The notes: a model not told the origin generated them from the letters alone. DNA of 32,586 bases from Natrialba chahannaoensis JCM 10990 (GCF_000337135.1 NZ_AOIN01000098.1:1-32586); one strand, 5' to 3'. Positions 13,782 through 25,231 are shown, counted from the stretch's first letter. Numbers and translations: made by a program.

Positions 13782-14090
13782 ATGACGGGCGAACATGGCC
13801 AAACGCGACGACGGGTACTCGGAATGGCTGGCGTGACGGTTTCGGCGCTGCTCATCGCGGGGTGTGGGGATACCGCACCGGAAGATGAGGATGGCGAACC
13901 AGAAGCCGAAGAGGGGACCGGGAATGGGCAAGATATCGAAGACGAAGACGAAGATGAAGATGAAGACGAAGACGAAGACGAAGAGGAGAACGGGGAGGAG
14001 GAGGGTGACGCGGGAACAGGTGTGACAGACAACGAAAATGGAGCAGATGCGAACAGCGAGGACGAGGACGAAGACGAAAACGAGAACTGA
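13782..14090 (+). CDS. Tat-exported polyacidic lipoprotein
   Basis: This 102-residue protein starts with a twin-arginine type signal (TRRRVLGMAGV) and a lipobox LIAGC ending at C28, so it is predicted to be a lipid-anchored surface protein. Everything after the Cys is low complexity: Asp and Glu dominate, with an uninterrupted acidic run in the middle (mostly Glu-Asp dipeptides encoded by GAAGAC/GAAGAT repeats) and scattered Asn and Gly. No folded domain is apparent. A role in cation or water binding at the surface is only a guess. The gene is convergent with the membrane protein that ends at 14138. Confidence 0.75.
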   Translation: MTGEHGQTRRRVLGMAGVTVSALLIAGCGDTAPEDEDGEPEAEEGTGNGQDIEDEDEDEDEDEDEDEEENGEEEGDAGTGVTDNENGADANSEDEDEDENEN

Positions 14091-17223: not shown

Positions 17224-18618
17224 TTAGCCCAGGATCGCGATGGAGTTCTGGTCGTCGTTGTCATCGTCGAGACCGTTGTTCTCGTCGGTGTCGTCATCAT
17301 CATCATCCATCTCATCGTCATCGTCAATCTCGTCCTCTTCAGCGGTCACGTCTTCGAGATCGGAAGCGTCACCGAGCGTGACGGTCTCCGCCGTTGCGTC
17401 ACTGATCGAGATCGAGGATGCGCTCGCGTGTGAGACGGTTTCCTCGTCGGTTACGTCGTTCTCGTCGTTCTCGTCGTTCTCGTCGTTCTCGTCGTTCTCG
17501 TCGTTCTCGTCGTTCTCGTCGTTCTCGTCGTTCTCGTCGTTCTCGTCGTTCTCGTCGTTCTCGTCGTTCTCGTCGTCATCGACACCGTTGTCCTCATCGT
17601 CGACACCGTTGTCTTCGTCATCTGCTTCGGTGTCGTCGGTGTCATCCTCGTCGGCCTCCTCGAGTGACTCGACCGTCATCGAGTCGATGGTGACATCGTC
17701 AACATCGAACTGTTCGATGGTCAGGTGCTCGAGTTCCTCACCGTTTGCGTCGTCTTCGTCGTCAGCGACGCCGTTGTCATCAGCGACGTCGTCGTTGTCA
17801 TCGACGCCGTTGTCCTCGTCATCTACCTCGTCGTTCTCGTCATCATCGTTGAAGATGCCGTCGAAGAAGTCACCGATCTGGTCGAGGATACCGTCGTCAT
17901 CCTCGATTTCCAGGTTGTCGATCGTCATCTGATCGACATCCATGGTTTCGATGGTGAGTTCGTTGACGGTCAGCTCGTCGGCATCCTCATCGAAGAGGTC
18001 GAACTCGTCGTCAGCGGCGTCGTCGTTGTCATCAACGCCGTTGTCCTCATCGTCGACACCGTTGTCCTCATCGTCCGCGTTGGTGTCGTCGTTGTCGTCG
18101 ACGTCAGCGTCGTCATCCTCATCCAGTTCCTCATCGTCCATCTCGTCTTCCATCTCATCTTCATCGAGTTCGAGATCATCGATTGAGACATCCTCGAGTT
18201 CGAGGTGTTCGATCTCGATGTCAGAGATCATGACAGACTCAGCGTCTTCTTCAACTTCTTCGTCGTCAACGCCGTTCTCGTCGTTGTCGTCAACGGCATT
18301 TTCGTCGTCAGCGGCGTCGTTGTCGTTGTCATCGACGCCGTTATCCGCATCATCTGCTTCGTCGTTCTCGTCCAGTTCCTCTTCGAGTTCTTCAGCGTCA
18401 GCGTCGAACTGATCGACGTTTAGCTCCTCGATGGTGGCATCCTCGACCGTAACGTTATCGAGGTCGAGTGTGCCAACCTGTACGTTCTCGAGTGTTGCGC
18501 TCATGTCTCCGGTGTCGTCCTGCGCGGGTGCTGTCGCCCCGGCGAGGGCAGGACCCCCCGACAGTGCGACTAGCAGTGCGACGAAGACGACTCCGAGTTG
18601 TTGTGGTCGTGAAACCAT
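17224..18618 (-). CDS. Secreted polyacidic protein A with five pentapeptide modules
   Basis: This 464-residue protein has a Sec signal peptide (VVFVALLVALSGGPALAG, cleavage near residue 27), and its mature part is overwhelmingly Asp, Glu and Asn. Five less acidic modules stand out at about residues 51-75, 129-153, 216-240, 299-318 and 398-422. Each is built of exact five-residue units with a hydrophobic residue, often Thr, then Ile or Val, then two mostly acidic or polar residues (VTVED, ATIEE, LTIET, MTIDN, VTLGD). Linkers contain NGVDD-type repeats, and residues 350-388 are 13 perfect Glu-Asn-Asp triplets. There is no lipobox, PGF-CTERM or C-terminal membrane helix; the end is a short hydrophobic AILG. 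It is a paralogue of the gene at 19254-21317. The function is unknown; a cation-binding surface or matrix protein is my guess. Confidence 0.82.
   Translation of the reverse strand: MVSRPQQLGVVFVALLVALSGGPALAGATAPAQDDTGDMSATLENVQVGTLDLDNVTVEDATIEELNVDQFDADAEELEEELDENDEADDADNGVDDNDNDAADDENAVDDNDENGVDDEEVEEDAESVMISDIEIEHLELEDVSIDDLELDEDEMEDEMDDEELDEDDDADVDDNDDTNADDEDNGVDDEDNGVDDNDDAADDEFDLFDEDADELTVNELTIETMDVDQMTIDNLEIEDDDGILDQIGDFFDGIFNDDDENDEVDDEDNGVDDNDDVADDNGVADDEDDANGEELEHLTIEQFDVDDVTIDSMTVESLEEADEDDTDDTEADDEDNGVDDEDNGVDDDENDENDENDENDENDENDENDENDENDENDENDENDENDVTDEETVSHASASSISISDATAETVTLGDASDLEDVTAEEDEIDDDDEMDDDDDDTDENNGLDDDNDDQNSIAILG
17458..17574. repeat. 13 perfect tandem copies of a 9-bp unit
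   Basis: GTTCTCGTC is repeated 13 times without any mismatch (117 bases). On the coding (minus) strand it encodes Glu-Asn-Asp thirteen times. Perfect identity at synonymous sites points to recent slippage expansion. Confidence 0.95.
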
Positions 18619-18640
18619 GCGAACTGACGTACCGCCTACT

Positions 18641-18660
18641 GTCGGCTAAAACGAGCCGAC
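18641..18660 (-). promoter_or_regulatory. TATA-like element within an inverted repeat, gene A
   Basis: GTCGGCT (18641-18647) and AGCCGAC (18654-18660) form a 7-base inverted repeat around AAAACG. On the minus strand this places TTTTAGCC about 30 bases before the ATG at 18618, consistent with a leaderless promoter that a protein bound to the palindrome could block. Confidence 0.5.
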
Positions 18661-18727
18661 TGTTACAGGCTTATCAGAGCGAAAAGTCCAGTTAGAACCG
18701 CTGCAATCGTCGCTAATCACTCGTTCA
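18643..18727 (-). repeat. Upstream segment duplicated from/to gene B
   Basis: This segment aligns with 21343-21427, upstream of gene B. It includes 16 identical bases (TGCAATCGTCGCTAAT at 18702-18717 and 21401-21416) and the conserved CCAGTTAGAA just before them. It shows that the paralogues were duplicated together with their promoter. Confidence 0.75.
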
Positions 18728-18730
18728 TCA

Positions 18731-18760
18731 TGTCACCGACAGAGAAGAATTTCGGTGACA
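18731..18760. repeat. 9-bp inverted repeat upstream of gene A
   Basis: TGTCACCGA (18731-18739) and TCGGTGACA (18752-18760) are exact inverted copies with a 12-base loop. The element lies 113-142 bases before the gene A start. No equivalent is seen at the same place upstream of gene B. Confidence 0.55.
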
Positions 18761-19253
18761 ATCGCACCAACCGATTCGGGACGAATTGTGTTTGTGCCTG
18801 CGGCTGCCACTGGATTATTGGAACCACTCATTTACTCCCGGCAAACGCATGTCTGATCGGACAACCGTCGTCAAACCGTGACCGTTACGGGTAGAACACA
18901 GACTGCCGACAACTCGAGTAGCAACAGGTGTGGTTGGGTTCGGGCGACAGGAAAGGTGACAGGCCAACAAGCAACAAACGACGGGTAACAAGCAGCAGCC
19001 ACCAGAGCCAGACCTCACAAATCAGACTCCACATCAACTGGAAAGTACACCAGAACGTGACACGGTACTCGAGTAGGAACTAGCCAGAAGATACTGCTGG
19101 AGTCAGGCCTGTGTCGAGAGCTGTATCGAGGTCTGTCGTCTGTCGCCACATGTCGTAGTTAAAAATAGCGGCGGCCGACCGGGTGATCGCCCCTGCACTG
19201 CCCTGCTGTGTCGGTCGACTGTCTGGGTGTCCGACTATTGGTTTTTGTGTTCG

Positions 19254-21317
19254 TTAGACGGCGAGTGCGTACTCTTCGTCGTTGTCGTTGTACTCGTCGT
19301 CATCGTCATCGTACTCGTTATCGTCGAGCTCGTCATCAAGTTCGTCGTCGACAGGTTCGTCGTCGATTCCGGTTGCGTCTCCGACTGTGACGCTGTCGGC
19401 GGTGGCATCGCCAACGGTGATCGATGATGCGTAGAGTGACGCGATGGTTACGTCGTCGGTCTCATCGAGGTCGTCGGTGTCGTCGACACCATTGTCGTCA
19501 ATGCCGTCGTCCTCGAGTCCGTTGTCGTCGAGTCCGTTGTCATCGACGCCGTTCTCCTCGTAGTCGTTGTCGTCTGCGTAGTCTCCGTTCTCTGCGTGGT
19601 CGTCGTGACCGTTGGTGTGGTCATCGTCTGCGTGCTTGTCGTCGTGTTTCTCGTCGTGTCCGTCATCTACCGCGTTGTTCTCGTCGTGCTTGTCATCGTG
19701 CGCATCGTCATGTTTGTCGTCGTACTCGTCATCGTGGGCATCCATGTCGTCGTGGTCATCGTGGTCATCGTAGTCTGCCTTCGTGTCGTCGTGTGCTGCG
19801 TCGTCGTCAGTCGCTGCATCATCGACATTGCACTCGGTCACTGCCTCATCGTTACCGTTGTCGACAACAACCTCGTTTTCGTCGTCCACACCGTCGTCAG
19901 CGACGCCGTTCTCGTCAGTCTCGTACTCGTCGTCGGTTTCGTCAGGTGCGGCTTCTTCCTCTGGCTCGTCGAGGTCGTCGGTGTCGACGCCGTCGTCCAC
20001 CGTGTCGTCGATAGCGCTGACGGTCATCGATTCGATGGTGAGTTCGTCGACGGTGAACTGTTCGATCGTGAGCTGATCGATTTCGTGGACATCGGTGTCG
20101 TCGAGGTCGTCGGTGTCGTCGACACCGTTGTCATCGTACTCGTCGTCATCGACGCCATTGTCCTCGACGCCGTTGTTATCGTATGCATCGTCGGTGTCAT
20201 CGAGGCCGTTCTCGTCAACACCGTTCTCCGCGTCGTCATCCGCTGCACCGCAGCAGGCACCGGTGTGGTCCTCGTCGTCGGTCACCTCGTCATCATCGAC
20301 CATCTCATCATCCTCGTCTACCAGCTCGTCGTCCTCATCATCCACTAGGTCGTCGTCAGTTTCAACGTCCTCTTCCTCGTCAACATCGAGCTCGTCGTCG
20401 AGCTCGTCATCAACCATTTCGTCTTCGACGGCGAGATCGTTGATCGTGAGCTGCGAGACGCTCATTGACTCGATGGTGAGGTCCTGAACGACGAGTTCGC
20501 CAACGTCCTCATCAAAGAGGTCGTGGTCGTTGTACTCGTCATCCTCGACGCCGTTGTCGTCAACGCCGTTCTCGTCGAGGCCGTCATCGTCGAGGCCATT
20601 CTCATCGACACCGTTGTCGTCATACTCGTCATCAGCGTCGTCGACACCATTGTCGTCAACGCCGTTCTCGTCGAGGGCGTCGTCCTCGAGACCGTCATCG
20701 TCGACGGCCTCATCCTCGTCGATAACGACGTCCTCATCTGCCTCCTCGGCGACATCTTCATCCATCATCTCGTCCTCGTGTTCAAACTCGACATCCTCGA
20801 TGGAGACGTCGGTCAGAACGAGCTGGTCGATCTGGATGTCGGAGATGGTGACGTGATCCATCTCGTCGGCGTCATCGATACCGTTCTCGTCAACGCCGTT
20901 CTCGTCGAGGTCGTCGTCTTCGACACCGTTATCCTCGACACCATTCTCATCGAGGCCATCGTCCTCGTACTCGTCATCGGCATCGTCGACACCGTTGTCG
21001 TCAACGTCGTCGATACCGTTCTCATCGTCTACACCGGGCCCATCAGCCTCTACGTGCTCATCGCCGAGTAACGCATGAAGCTGCTCGTCGTCAACATCGA
21101 GTTGTTCGACAGTCAACTCCTCGATCGTCGCCTCTTCGATTGTGACTTCGTCTAACTCGAGTGTGCCTACCTGTGCGTTCTCGACCGTCGCGCCCATGTC
21201 TCCGTCCTCAGTGTCGTCTGCGGCTGGTCCCGATCCGCCAGCGAGGGCAGGACCCCCCGACAGCGCGACCAAGAGCGCCACGAAAACGACACCGAGTTGC
21301 TGTGATCGTGAAACCAT
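19254..21317 (-). CDS. Secreted polyacidic protein B with five pentapeptide modules and His-Asp block
   Basis: This 687-residue paralogue of protein A has a nearly identical Sec signal peptide and module order. Pentapeptide modules lie at about residues 53-77 (LELDE VTIEE ATIEE LTVEQ), 156-180, 275-299, 416-435 and 623-652 (ITVGD ATADS VTVGD). The linkers are longer and full of five-residue NG(V/L/I)(D/E)(D/E) repeats. Two features are absent from A: a Cys-Cys pair (C355-C356, in GACCGA) with a single further C496, and a His-Asp-Lys-rich block at about residues 509-574 (motifs HDD, KHDD, DDKH) that looks metal-binding. There is no anchor; the end is ALAV. Function is unknown and the family is not recognised. 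The shared architecture suggests both proteins fold or assemble in the same way. Confidence 0.82.
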   Translation of the reverse strand: MVSRSQQLGVVFVALLVALSGGPALAGGSGPAADDTEDGDMGATVENAQVGTLELDEVTIEEATIEELTVEQLDVDDEQLHALLGDEHVEADGPGVDDENGIDDVDDNGVDDADDEYEDDGLDENGVEDNGVEDDDLDENGVDENGIDDADEMDHVTISDIQIDQLVLTDVSIEDVEFEHEDEMMDEDVAEEADEDVVIDEDEAVDDDGLEDDALDENGVDDNGVDDADDEYDDNGVDENGLDDDGLDENGVDDNGVEDDEYNDHDLFDEDVGELVVQDLTIESMSVSQLTINDLAVEDEMVDDELDDELDVDEEEDVETDDDLVDDEDDELVDEDDEMVDDDEVTDDEDHTGACCGAADDDAENGVDENGLDDTDDAYDNNGVEDNGVDDDEYDDNGVDDTDDLDDTDVHEIDQLTIEQFTVDELTIESMTVSAIDDTVDDGVDTDDLDEPEEEAAPDETDDEYETDENGVADDGVDDENEVVVDNGNDEAVTECNVDDAATDDDAAHDDTKADYDDHDDHDDMDAHDDEYDDKHDDAHDDKHDENNAVDDGHDEKHDDKHADDDHTNGHDDHAENGDYADDNDYEENGVDDNGLDDNGLEDDGIDDNGVDDTDDLDETDDVTIASLYASSITVGDATADSVTVGDATGIDDEPVDDELDDELDDNEYDDDDDEYNDNDEEYALAV

Positions 21318-21342: not shown

Positions 21343-21427
21343 GGCTAAAACAAGCTGACTGTTTCAGTCATGTCAGGACGGAAATGCCAGTTAGAAGCCG
21401 TGCAATCGTCGCTAATGACCCATTTCA
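21343..21427 (-). promoter_or_regulatory. Promoter region of gene B, homologous to that of gene A
   Basis: A minus-strand TTTTAGCC (plus GGCTAAAA, 21343-21350) sits 26-33 bases before the ATG at 21317, as in gene A. The following 70 bases match the region upstream of gene A, including TGCAATCGTCGCTAAT at 21401-21416. Confidence 0.55.
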
Positions 21428-21580
21428 TTAGCGGTCGTGTGACTGTCATCAGCTGCGAAGATCGTCGCCTGAGACGAGTCGGCCCGTACGCGAGAACACG
21501 CCCATCAAAGCTGGACACACACCAGCCGCCAGAGCGATCCCGGCCGACCCGCTGGCAGCAAACGCCCGGAGAACGGAACG

Positions 21581-23275: not shown

Positions 23276-25231
23276 GTGCGCGAACGCTCCCGGAACACGG
23301 TGTGCCTCGGCGCGGCACTCATCGTTGGGACTGTACTCATCATCGGCCTCGCCGGCCTCTTCGTCGTCGACGCCGGGTCGACGACACCCCCACCCGCCGA
23401 GTTCGACGACACCGTCCCCGTCGGACTTACACTCGAGGACGAGCGCGGTCTCGACGAGGACGTTGCCCTCCCGCAGGCGCAAGTGTTCTACTCGCAATAC
23501 CAGTACGTCGTCGGCTACTACGGCGTCGAGACCTTTCTCGGCGAACGCCAGCAGGCCGGCCACGAACAGCAGTTCGGCCACCCGCTGACGGTGTACGTTT
23601 CCGACTACAGCGACACCGGACTCGAGTTGAGTGCTGAAGGCTATCCGATTCCCGAGCAGGAACCTGGTTGGACCGACGCCGAGACGGCGTGGTTCGTCGT
23701 GGATAGCGACGCGCAAACGCCGGCCGGCGACACGGTCGTCCCGTTCAGCGAGCGCGAGGACGCCGAGGCGTTCGCTGGTGACCACGGCGGCAGCGTCTCC
23801 GACTGGGAGTCGGTACTCGAGCAGTCGTTCGATCAGGACGATGCGACAGTTGCTCGTGATCGTGTTGACGACCATCACCAGGTGGCTGACGACCGAATCG
23901 AGGCCGTCGACTCGTACGCCGAACGGCCGCCGTCGATCGTCGCCGGCGAGGAGACGGAGACGATCCAGGAGGCGATCGACCAGGCACCAGCGAACACGAC
24001 TGTTGTTGTTCCGGCGGGGACCTACGAAGAGACACTCGAGATCGACCGGCCGATTACGCTCGTCGGCGAGGGTGAGGTGACGATTCGCGGTGACGACAAC
24101 GGTACTGTCATCACCGTCACAGGGGAGGACGTCGGAATCCAGAACCTCGCGGTCACCGGCGTCGGCAACCAGACGAAGGGGGGAGAGGACCTCCCCGTTG
24201 ACATCGACGAGGACGAGTGGGACGCGACCTTCATGACGTACTACGCTGGCACTGACGCCGGAATCGGTGCCTACGGTGCCGACAACCTCCTCGTCAATGA
24301 TGTCGAAATCGAGACACCGGCGAGCGGGGTGATCGGCTACGACAGCACGGACGCCGTCGTCCGGAACGTCTCGGTCAGGGGTCCCGAGGACCCATCTGAT
24401 GGCCTCGCTGGTATCTTGCTGTTTCAGTCGTCGAGCGTCGTCGAGGACTCGGCCGTGCAAGGGGGGAAGAACGGTATCTATCTCTACCGCTCATCGAACA
24501 CGATTCTTCGGTCGAACGAGGTCACCGGCAACGAAATCGGCGTCCACCTGATGCACACGAGTGACACGCTGATCGACGGGAACGAGCTCCGCGGGCATCT
24601 TGTCTCTGGCGTCGACGTGATGACCGGCCCCGAACGGAACGCGATCGTCGAAAACGACGTTCGCAACAGTGAAACAGGGTTCAGTATCGGCGGCAGCGAG
24701 ACGTACGTTGCATCGAACGTCGCCGCCGACAACGAACTCGGCCTGCGCGTTGAGACGACCACCTCGTTCTACGAGGGCAACGTTCTCGCCGGCAACGTCG
24801 TGGGAACGGACGTGAGGGCGATGCTCCCGACGAACCGTGTCGTCGGCAACGACTTCGTCGAAAACGACGAGCACGCAACGACCACGTCCGGGCCGCTTCG
24901 TATCTGGAGCGACGGCGAGAGCGGCAACTACTGGCAGGGCGGCGCGGCAATCGCGGGCGATGCCGACGGCACCCACGCCGACCGCTCGTACTCGCCGACT
25001 GATGCAGTCGACGAACGACTGCACCGAACTGATGGCGCACAGACGCTCGTCCGAGCACCGGCACTGCAGGCACTCGCCGGACTCGAGGGGTCGGTTCCGG
25101 GCATGCGGACTGGAAGCATCGTCGATCAGGCACCAACCTGTGAGCCGAACAATCCGGAACTACTCGACCGAACCGACTGGGCCGAGTCCGCCTGGTCGTG
25201 CGCTGACACACCTACTTCGACCAATGACTGA
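23276..25231 (+). CDS. nosD: NosD-like periplasmic-type beta-helix protein with NosL-like N-terminal domain
   Basis: This 651-residue exported protein starts at GTG (MRERSRNTV) and has one N-terminal hydrophobic segment at about residues 11-32. Residues about 65-182 resemble NosL (LTVYVSDYSDTG, AWFVVDSDAQTPAGDTVVPF, EDAEAFAGDHGGSVSDW) but contain no Cys. From about 222 (ETETIQEAIDQAPANTTVVVPAGTYEE) to about 600 it is a right-handed beta-helix of NosD/carbohydrate-binding type with many N-x-x-x-N-x-x-G turns. In denitrifiers NosD works with the NosFY ABC transporter in supplying copper or sulfur for nitrous oxide reductase. It overlaps nosF by eight bases, so the three genes are an operon. No nosZ is in the window, so the role here is open. 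Confidence 0.88.
   Translation: MRERSRNTVCLGAALIVGTVLIIGLAGLFVVDAGSTTPPPAEFDDTVPVGLTLEDERGLDEDVALPQAQVFYSQYQYVVGYYGVETFLGERQQAGHEQQFGHPLTVYVSDYSDTGLELSAEGYPIPEQEPGWTDAETAWFVVDSDAQTPAGDTVVPFSEREDAEAFAGDHGGSVSDWESVLEQSFDQDDATVARDRVDDHHQVADDRIEAVDSYAERPPSIVAGEETETIQEAIDQAPANTTVVVPAGTYEETLEIDRPITLVGEGEVTIRGDDNGTVITVTGEDVGIQNLAVTGVGNQTKGGEDLPVDIDEDEWDATFMTYYAGTDAGIGAYGADNLLVNDVEIETPASGVIGYDSTDAVVRNVSVRGPEDPSDGLAGILLFQSSSVVEDSAVQGGKNGIYLYRSSNTILRSNEVTGNEIGVHLMHTSDTLIDGNELRGHLVSGVDVMTGPERNAIVENDVRNSETGFSIGGSETYVASNVAADNELGLRVETTTSFYEGNVLAGNVVGTDVRAMLPTNRVVGNDFVENDEHATTTSGPLRIWSDGESGNYWQGGAAIAGDADGTHADRSYSPTDAVDERLHRTDGAQTLVRAPALQALAGLEGSVPGMRTGSIVDQAPTCEPNNPELLDRTDWAESAWSCADTPTSTND

Follow-up and report, generated by a model that had tools for sequence, protein, structure and literature searches.

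Two collinear genes of the haloarchaeon Natrialba chahannaoensis JCM 10990, here called A and B, encode secreted polyacidic proteins built around five interspersed modules of five-residue units. They lie on the minus strand of the 32,586-nucleotide stretch of DNA that was analysed (the window), B being 635 bp downstream of A. We consider it reasonably probable that both products are non-lipidated surface or matrix proteins, in which a pentapeptide beta-helix serves as scaffold for polyanionic loops, and that the two belong to one two-subunit system. The structural core of this proposal, namely that the modules are coils and the linkers are loops between coils, appears likely from homologue comparison and structure models.

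Five-residue phase and predicted fold

A preliminary description of this DNA had claimed five modules in the same order in both proteins, with about 24 units in A and 25 in B. The coordinates given there are exact. Module-specific hidden Markov models (HMMs) located the five modules (M1 to M5) in this shared order (Table 1), and alignment gives about 24-27 units in each protein. When a unit was defined as hydrophobic-x-hydrophobic-x-x and counted only in consecutive runs of at least four, 24 units were found in B and 15 in A. The shuffled mature proteins gave means of 0.016 and 0.03 units and maxima of 4 and 5 (2000 shuffles), and shuffling within each B module gave a mean of 0.03 and a maximum of 5. 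The five-residue phase of the A and B modules is far beyond chance. Such a conserved hydrophobic phase is a criterion of the pentapeptide superfamily, and it is present in A, B and their homologues. The units also fit the broad consensus of pentapeptide repeat proteins (PF00805, PF13599, PF13576; Rfr fold), that is hydrophobic or small, polar, L/F/I/V, polar, polar, with the difference that the central position is dominated here by I/V and not by L/F. M1 comprises 6-7 units and is longer than M2-M5, which have 4-5. The earlier idea that each module makes about one turn, at four units per coil, holds for M2-M5 but not for M1, which would make about 1.5 turns.

We then considered what is conserved in an alignment of 44 homologues. 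The M1, M2 and M4 cores contain no internal insertion or deletion, M3 varies only at the edge of the alignment, in its final residue, and M5 lacks one residue in one protein. The four linkers between the modules, by contrast, vary in length from 21 to 192 residues. The loss of phase among homologues, one of two refuting results named in the preliminary description, was not seen. Moreover, in linker-poor homologues of distant families the M1-M2 linker is exactly 10 residues long, or two units, and M1 and M2 together form 12 consecutive in-register pentapeptides. These fused stretches match Pfam Pentapeptide_4 (PF13599) with E values of 2.7e-7 and 1.4e-4; real sequences score 22-31 bits against 13-14 bits for reversed copies, which keep the period, and shuffled copies are unmatched. 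The top PDB matches of a profile of the linker-poor homologues are designed pentapeptide solenoids (5DQA, E 2.5e-4; 4YEI, 5DRA, 4YC5), followed by the natural proteins 2O6W and 2J8K, so that these relatives match both PF13599 and solved members. Homologues are widespread in haloarchaea, among them an A-type protein of a sister species (L044:9659-12106, minus strand) in which the module HMMs detect a duplicated M4, each copy with its own linker, and six modules in total. Because the modules are essentially free of insertions and deletions, the linkers variable and M1 and M2 fusible in register, the most natural reading of the linkers is as loops between the coils of one helix.

AlphaFold2 was run on B with its linkers retained and on one homologue whose shortest linker is 26 residues. 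Every module was predicted to be all-beta, with a core pLDDT (predicted local distance difference test) of about 71-90; the linkers were mostly below 50, as was more than half of B. The predicted template modelling score was 0.44, despite the disorder of more than half of the chain. DSSP assigned a continuous 'E' across 23-29 residues per module. Since a lone coil of 20 residues has almost no internal bridge partner, such continuity would imply pairing between modules. The prediction on B thus returned all-beta modules and no confident non-helical result. Altogether, the phase, the all-beta models, the M1-M2 fusion and the gained M4 support the earlier suggestion that the modules of a single protein stack as pentapeptide coils while its linkers loop out.

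Several results weigh against this reading. One-rod stacking is deduced from strand strings and homologues rather than directly from model coordinates. Foldseek and VIA-align comparisons of both models with the PDB gave no match, although gapped models are hard for both programs, and these searches are uninformative because long disordered stretches split the modules. The best Pentapeptide_4 match of a homologue, at 31 bits, is under the curated cut-off of 38, and neither A, B nor this homologue has a Pfam pentapeptide match at the curated cut-off. A and B had no match in either Pfam or NCBIfam, in agreement with the remark in the preliminary description that no named family was recognized. 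Finally, the neighbours are housekeeping genes throughout, tgtA and a NUDIX gene in the own taxonomic family, an isoaspartyl peptidase-like gene and icd in other families (mapped by eye), and the neighbourhood was dropped as a functional clue.

By fold, pentapeptide repeat proteins are the known proteins closest to A and B, but there are differences. They have at most 7 contiguous units, whereas the usual definition (PMC8145042) asks for at least eight; the linker-poor homologues have 12. By this count of contiguous repeats in the sequences, the window proteins are not members and their linker-poor relatives are. Linkers of 58-192 residues stand at every module of A and B, compared with insertions of 6-24 residues in the solved pentapeptide members considered. 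YjbI of Caulobacter is a secreted pentapeptide beta-helix with acidic stretches, located at the cell surface, and a cyanobacterial orthologue has one calcium-binding face (PMC12864828). YjbI differs from A and B in its continuous helix, cysteine pairs at the ends, outer-membrane setting and absence of long linkers.

Polyanionic linkers and alternative arrangements

The Sec signal described earlier for both proteins was again judged Sec-type by eye and is kept in homologues. The N-termini of A and B read MVSR(P/S)QQLGVVFVALLVALSGGPALAG, with the near-identical signal MVSRxQQLGVVFVALLVALSGGPALAG. No lipobox Cys follows the signal: mature B is without Cys, and the Cys residues of A lie far from it. 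The sequences of A and B contain no obvious membrane anchor. Asp and Glu together make up 49% of mature B and 46% of mature A, and Lys and Arg 0% and 0.8%, respectively, versus 4.5-10% in five neighbouring proteins; the net charge is about -45 to -49 per 100 residues. The Asp/Glu/Asn linkers with NG-type repeats noticed before are borne out by the count of NG dipeptides, 25 in the A linkers and 10 in those of B. Part of linker 4 of B is written by a 9-bp tandem array (Table 1), and in-frame short DNA repeats of this kind offer a simple route to length change.

The composition of the linkers changes among homologues. Of the 44 proteins, 24 lack N-glycosylation sequons in the linkers, which are 48-66% Asp+Glu; they belong to Natrialba, Natronorubrum, Natronococcus, Natrarchaeobius and soda-lake metagenomes. 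Sequon-rich homologues (Natrinema, Halopiger, Haloterrigena, Halovivax, Halostella) have 13 to 47 linker sequons, with z values of about 8 to 14 over shuffles, and 21-47% Asp+Glu. Judged by sequence, the linkers switch by lineage between pure Asp/Glu and a sequon-packed form with less Asp/Glu. We take the sequon-free genera to be mostly alkaliphilic and the sequon-rich genera mostly neutrophilic, habitat being confounded with phylogeny. The own genome encodes the oligosaccharyl transferase AglB, and the absence of sequons here is therefore not due to a missing enzyme. What is conserved in the loops appears to be composition, chiefly the near absence of Lys and Arg, rather than sequence.

We propose the following scenario. 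In each protein the modules would follow one another as coils of a single right-handed square beta-helix, about six coils in all. Four long anionic loops would leave at the coil junctions and, together with an acidic tail, give a short spiky rod. The rod would act as a scaffold, and function would lie in the loops, which would form a hydrated polyanionic brush and hold cations and water at the cell surface. Selection would retain loop hydrophilicity and the near absence of Lys and Arg, not the sequence, and part of the role of the loops would presumably pass to N-glycans in other lineages. A and B would be differentiated subunits of one system. A cation-binding surface material is a plausible reading of this arrangement. 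A beta-solenoid that accepts at each coil a long loop free to vary would be a natural template for display scaffolds, and the surface ion layer may owe its charge to Asp/Glu in some lineages and, presumably, to glycans in others.

Alternatively, the modules could stack between molecules, like the repeats of FapC and CsgA, A and B polymerizing or copolymerizing end to end through their single-coil modules into an extracellular fibre with a polyanionic or N-glycosylated coat, one paralogue possibly nucleating and the other making up the bulk. We regard such a two-subunit fibre as unlikely, but its likeness to FapC makes it a live rival. Among known systems FapC is the closest in mode of working: its conserved solenoid repeats are spaced by disordered linkers, about 30 to 260 residues long, and FapB is its linked paralogue (PMC12392863; PMC3792158). 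FapC/FapB and CsgA resemble A and B in being secreted and in their conserved solenoid repeats, and FapC also in its long hypervariable disordered linkers and linked paralogue; the two ancient types in constant order and the common promoter block described below fit a fibre as well. However, the repeat sequence and fold are unrelated (Greek-key or flat solenoid versus five-residue square helix), and the linkers of A and B are polyanionic. No Fap or curli family or secretion operon appears among the Pfam/NCBIfam matches of the window proteins tested, the neighbours being tgtA and NUDIX, and partner genes for secretion or chaperoning are not seen in the conserved block. Moreover, a charge of this density works against stacking unless the salt is strong, only one gene and no B-type is seen in the stretch examined in distant families, and the homologue profile favours the pentapeptide fold, most known members of which are soluble monomers or dimers. 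If true, a fibre would be a functional-amyloid-like material on a pentapeptide fold, with a lineage switch between carboxylate and glycan coats.

It is rather improbable that A and B are essentially disordered polyacids, in which the modules would serve as short adhesive beta stretches for binding a partner, for example the S-layer, and would not join into one beta-helix. The large share of B at low pLDDT and the absence of a PDB fold match by Foldseek or VIA-align would agree with this, but the essentially indel-free five-residue phase in all modules, the in-register M1-M2 fusion and the pentapeptide matches that beat reversed and shuffled controls would not. Lastly, a DNA-mimic, gyrase-protecting protein of the Qnr/MfpA kind, suggested by the acidic pentapeptide helix of MfpA and Qnr (PMC8145042), is very improbable indeed, as a conserved signal peptide sends the homologues out of the cell, long loops break the modules and no topoisomerase genes are seen in the locus context.

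Two paralogous types across haloarchaea

The width of the family, the A and B types and the alternation of linkers are absent from the preliminary description and come from the homologues. The family is present in 101 of 125 genomes of the own taxonomic family, and four further families of that order contain weaker relatives; named relatives are found in Natrialba, Natronorubrum, Natronococcus, Natrinema, Halopiger, Haloterrigena, Halovivax, Halobiforma and Halostella. A search of the literature for pentapeptide, acidic low-complexity or amyloid proteins of haloarchaea gave nothing relevant in the papers covered. By the literature searched, these are apparently undescribed, widespread haloarchaeal proteins without a Pfam or NCBIfam model.

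In the own family the genes are usually paired between tgtA and the NUDIX gene and transcribed away from tgtA. In all the intact pairs examined, from more than 20 genomes, the copy on the tgtA side is A-type and that on the NUDIX side B-type; at split loci the copies retain their type in nearly all cases. The B-type is marked by a conserved amphipathic stretch, GILDQIGDFFDGIF, directly after M3. This constancy of type and position indicates old differentiated subunits rather than a recent duplication; on this comparison of sequences, A and B represent two paralogous types of ancient origin.

The paralogues also have a promoter block in common across genera, which ends in AACAGTCxxCTcGTTTTAG about 28 nt before the ATG; its TTTTAG stands at the TATA position of a leaderless transcript. 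In the own genome the exact block occurs only before A and B. A wider regulon was considered and rejected, the three two-mismatch sites of this genome being near the control level.

Table 1. Coordinates of the A and B genes and their features in the window
Feature	Position	Strand	Residues	Basis
A promoter block, CATTAG ... AACAGTCAGCTTGTTTTAG, ends ~28 nt before ATG	21343..21430	-		alignment, pattern
Gene A, secreted polyacidic five-module, A-type (no helix after M3), tgtA-proximal	19254..21317	-	687 aa	open reading frame, module HMMs, type/position comparison
A signal peptide (MVSRSQQLGVVFVALLVALSGGPALAG)	21237..21317	-	1-27	sequence; conserved in homologues
A M1, 7 pentapeptides	21087..21191	-	43-77	unit runs, module HMM (43-72)
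A M2	20778..20852	-	156-180	module HMM (156-175)
A M3	20421..20495	-	275-299	module HMM (275-298)
A M4	20007..20081	-	413-437	module HMM (413-437)
A M5	19377..19439	-	627-647	module HMM (627-647)
A C-terminal hydrophobic tail site	19257-19277	-		homologue comparison
B promoter block, same motif as A	18643..18730	-		alignment, pattern
Gene B, secreted polyacidic five-module, B-type (amphipathic helix after M3), NUDIX-proximal	17224..18618	-	464 aa	open reading frame, module HMMs, type/position comparison, structure model
B signal peptide	18538..18618	-	1-27	sequence; conserved in homologues
B M1, 7 pentapeptides	18394..18498	-	41-75	unit runs, module HMM (41-70); predicted beta 52-74
B M2	18160..18234	-	129-153	module HMM (129-148); predicted beta 128-151
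B M3	17899..17973	-	216-240	module HMM (216-239); predicted beta 215-238
B-type conserved amphipathic segment after M3 (DGILDQIGDFFDGIFN)	17848..17895	-	242-257	homologue comparison; helix 245-256, low-confidence AlphaFold2
B M4	17659..17733	-	296-320	module HMM (296-320); predicted beta 293-321
Part of B linker 4, 9-bp tandem array, ~15 copies, encodes (DEN)n	17443..17576	-		DNA repeat analysis
B M5	17368..17433	-	396-417	module HMM (396-417); predicted beta 392-417
B C-terminal hydrophobic tail NSIAILG	17227..17247	-		S(I/V)AxL-like ending in many homologues

Distant relatives and further observations

The single-gene homologues of other haloarchaeal families (L063-L082) have their modules in the shared order, most clearly in L064 and L074, where all five are evident. 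They differ in that the first linker or linkers are short or absent in some, several have a C-terminal Ig-like domain, and the conserved locus is another one. No B-type partner was found in the locus stretches examined. In two other families, an isoaspartyl peptidase/asparaginase-like gene adjoins the single-copy homologue (L065:11077-11988, minus strand; L078:7411-8451, plus strand); its adjacency to Asn-Gly-rich linkers may be meaningful or may be chance. Asp_protease_2 matches in three homologues were taken as chance, having no full domain or catalytic motif. A direct plasmid source of the DNA was also dismissed, as there was no plasmid match.

In many homologues of both types a short hydrophobic tail, often S(I/V)AxL(S/G/N), follows the acidic stretch; it is perhaps a targeting or assembly tail. 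Another polyacidic surface protein may be encoded 3 kb from B, at 13782-14090 on the plus strand. This small putative lipoprotein, RRRVLGMAGVTVSALLIAGCGD, has a twin-Arg-like signal with a lipobox Cys and a tail of 56% Asp+Glu in which Lys and Arg are absent. Elsewhere in the window (23276-25231, plus strand), NosL-like and NosD-like beta-helix domains are fused in a single protein according to Pfam.

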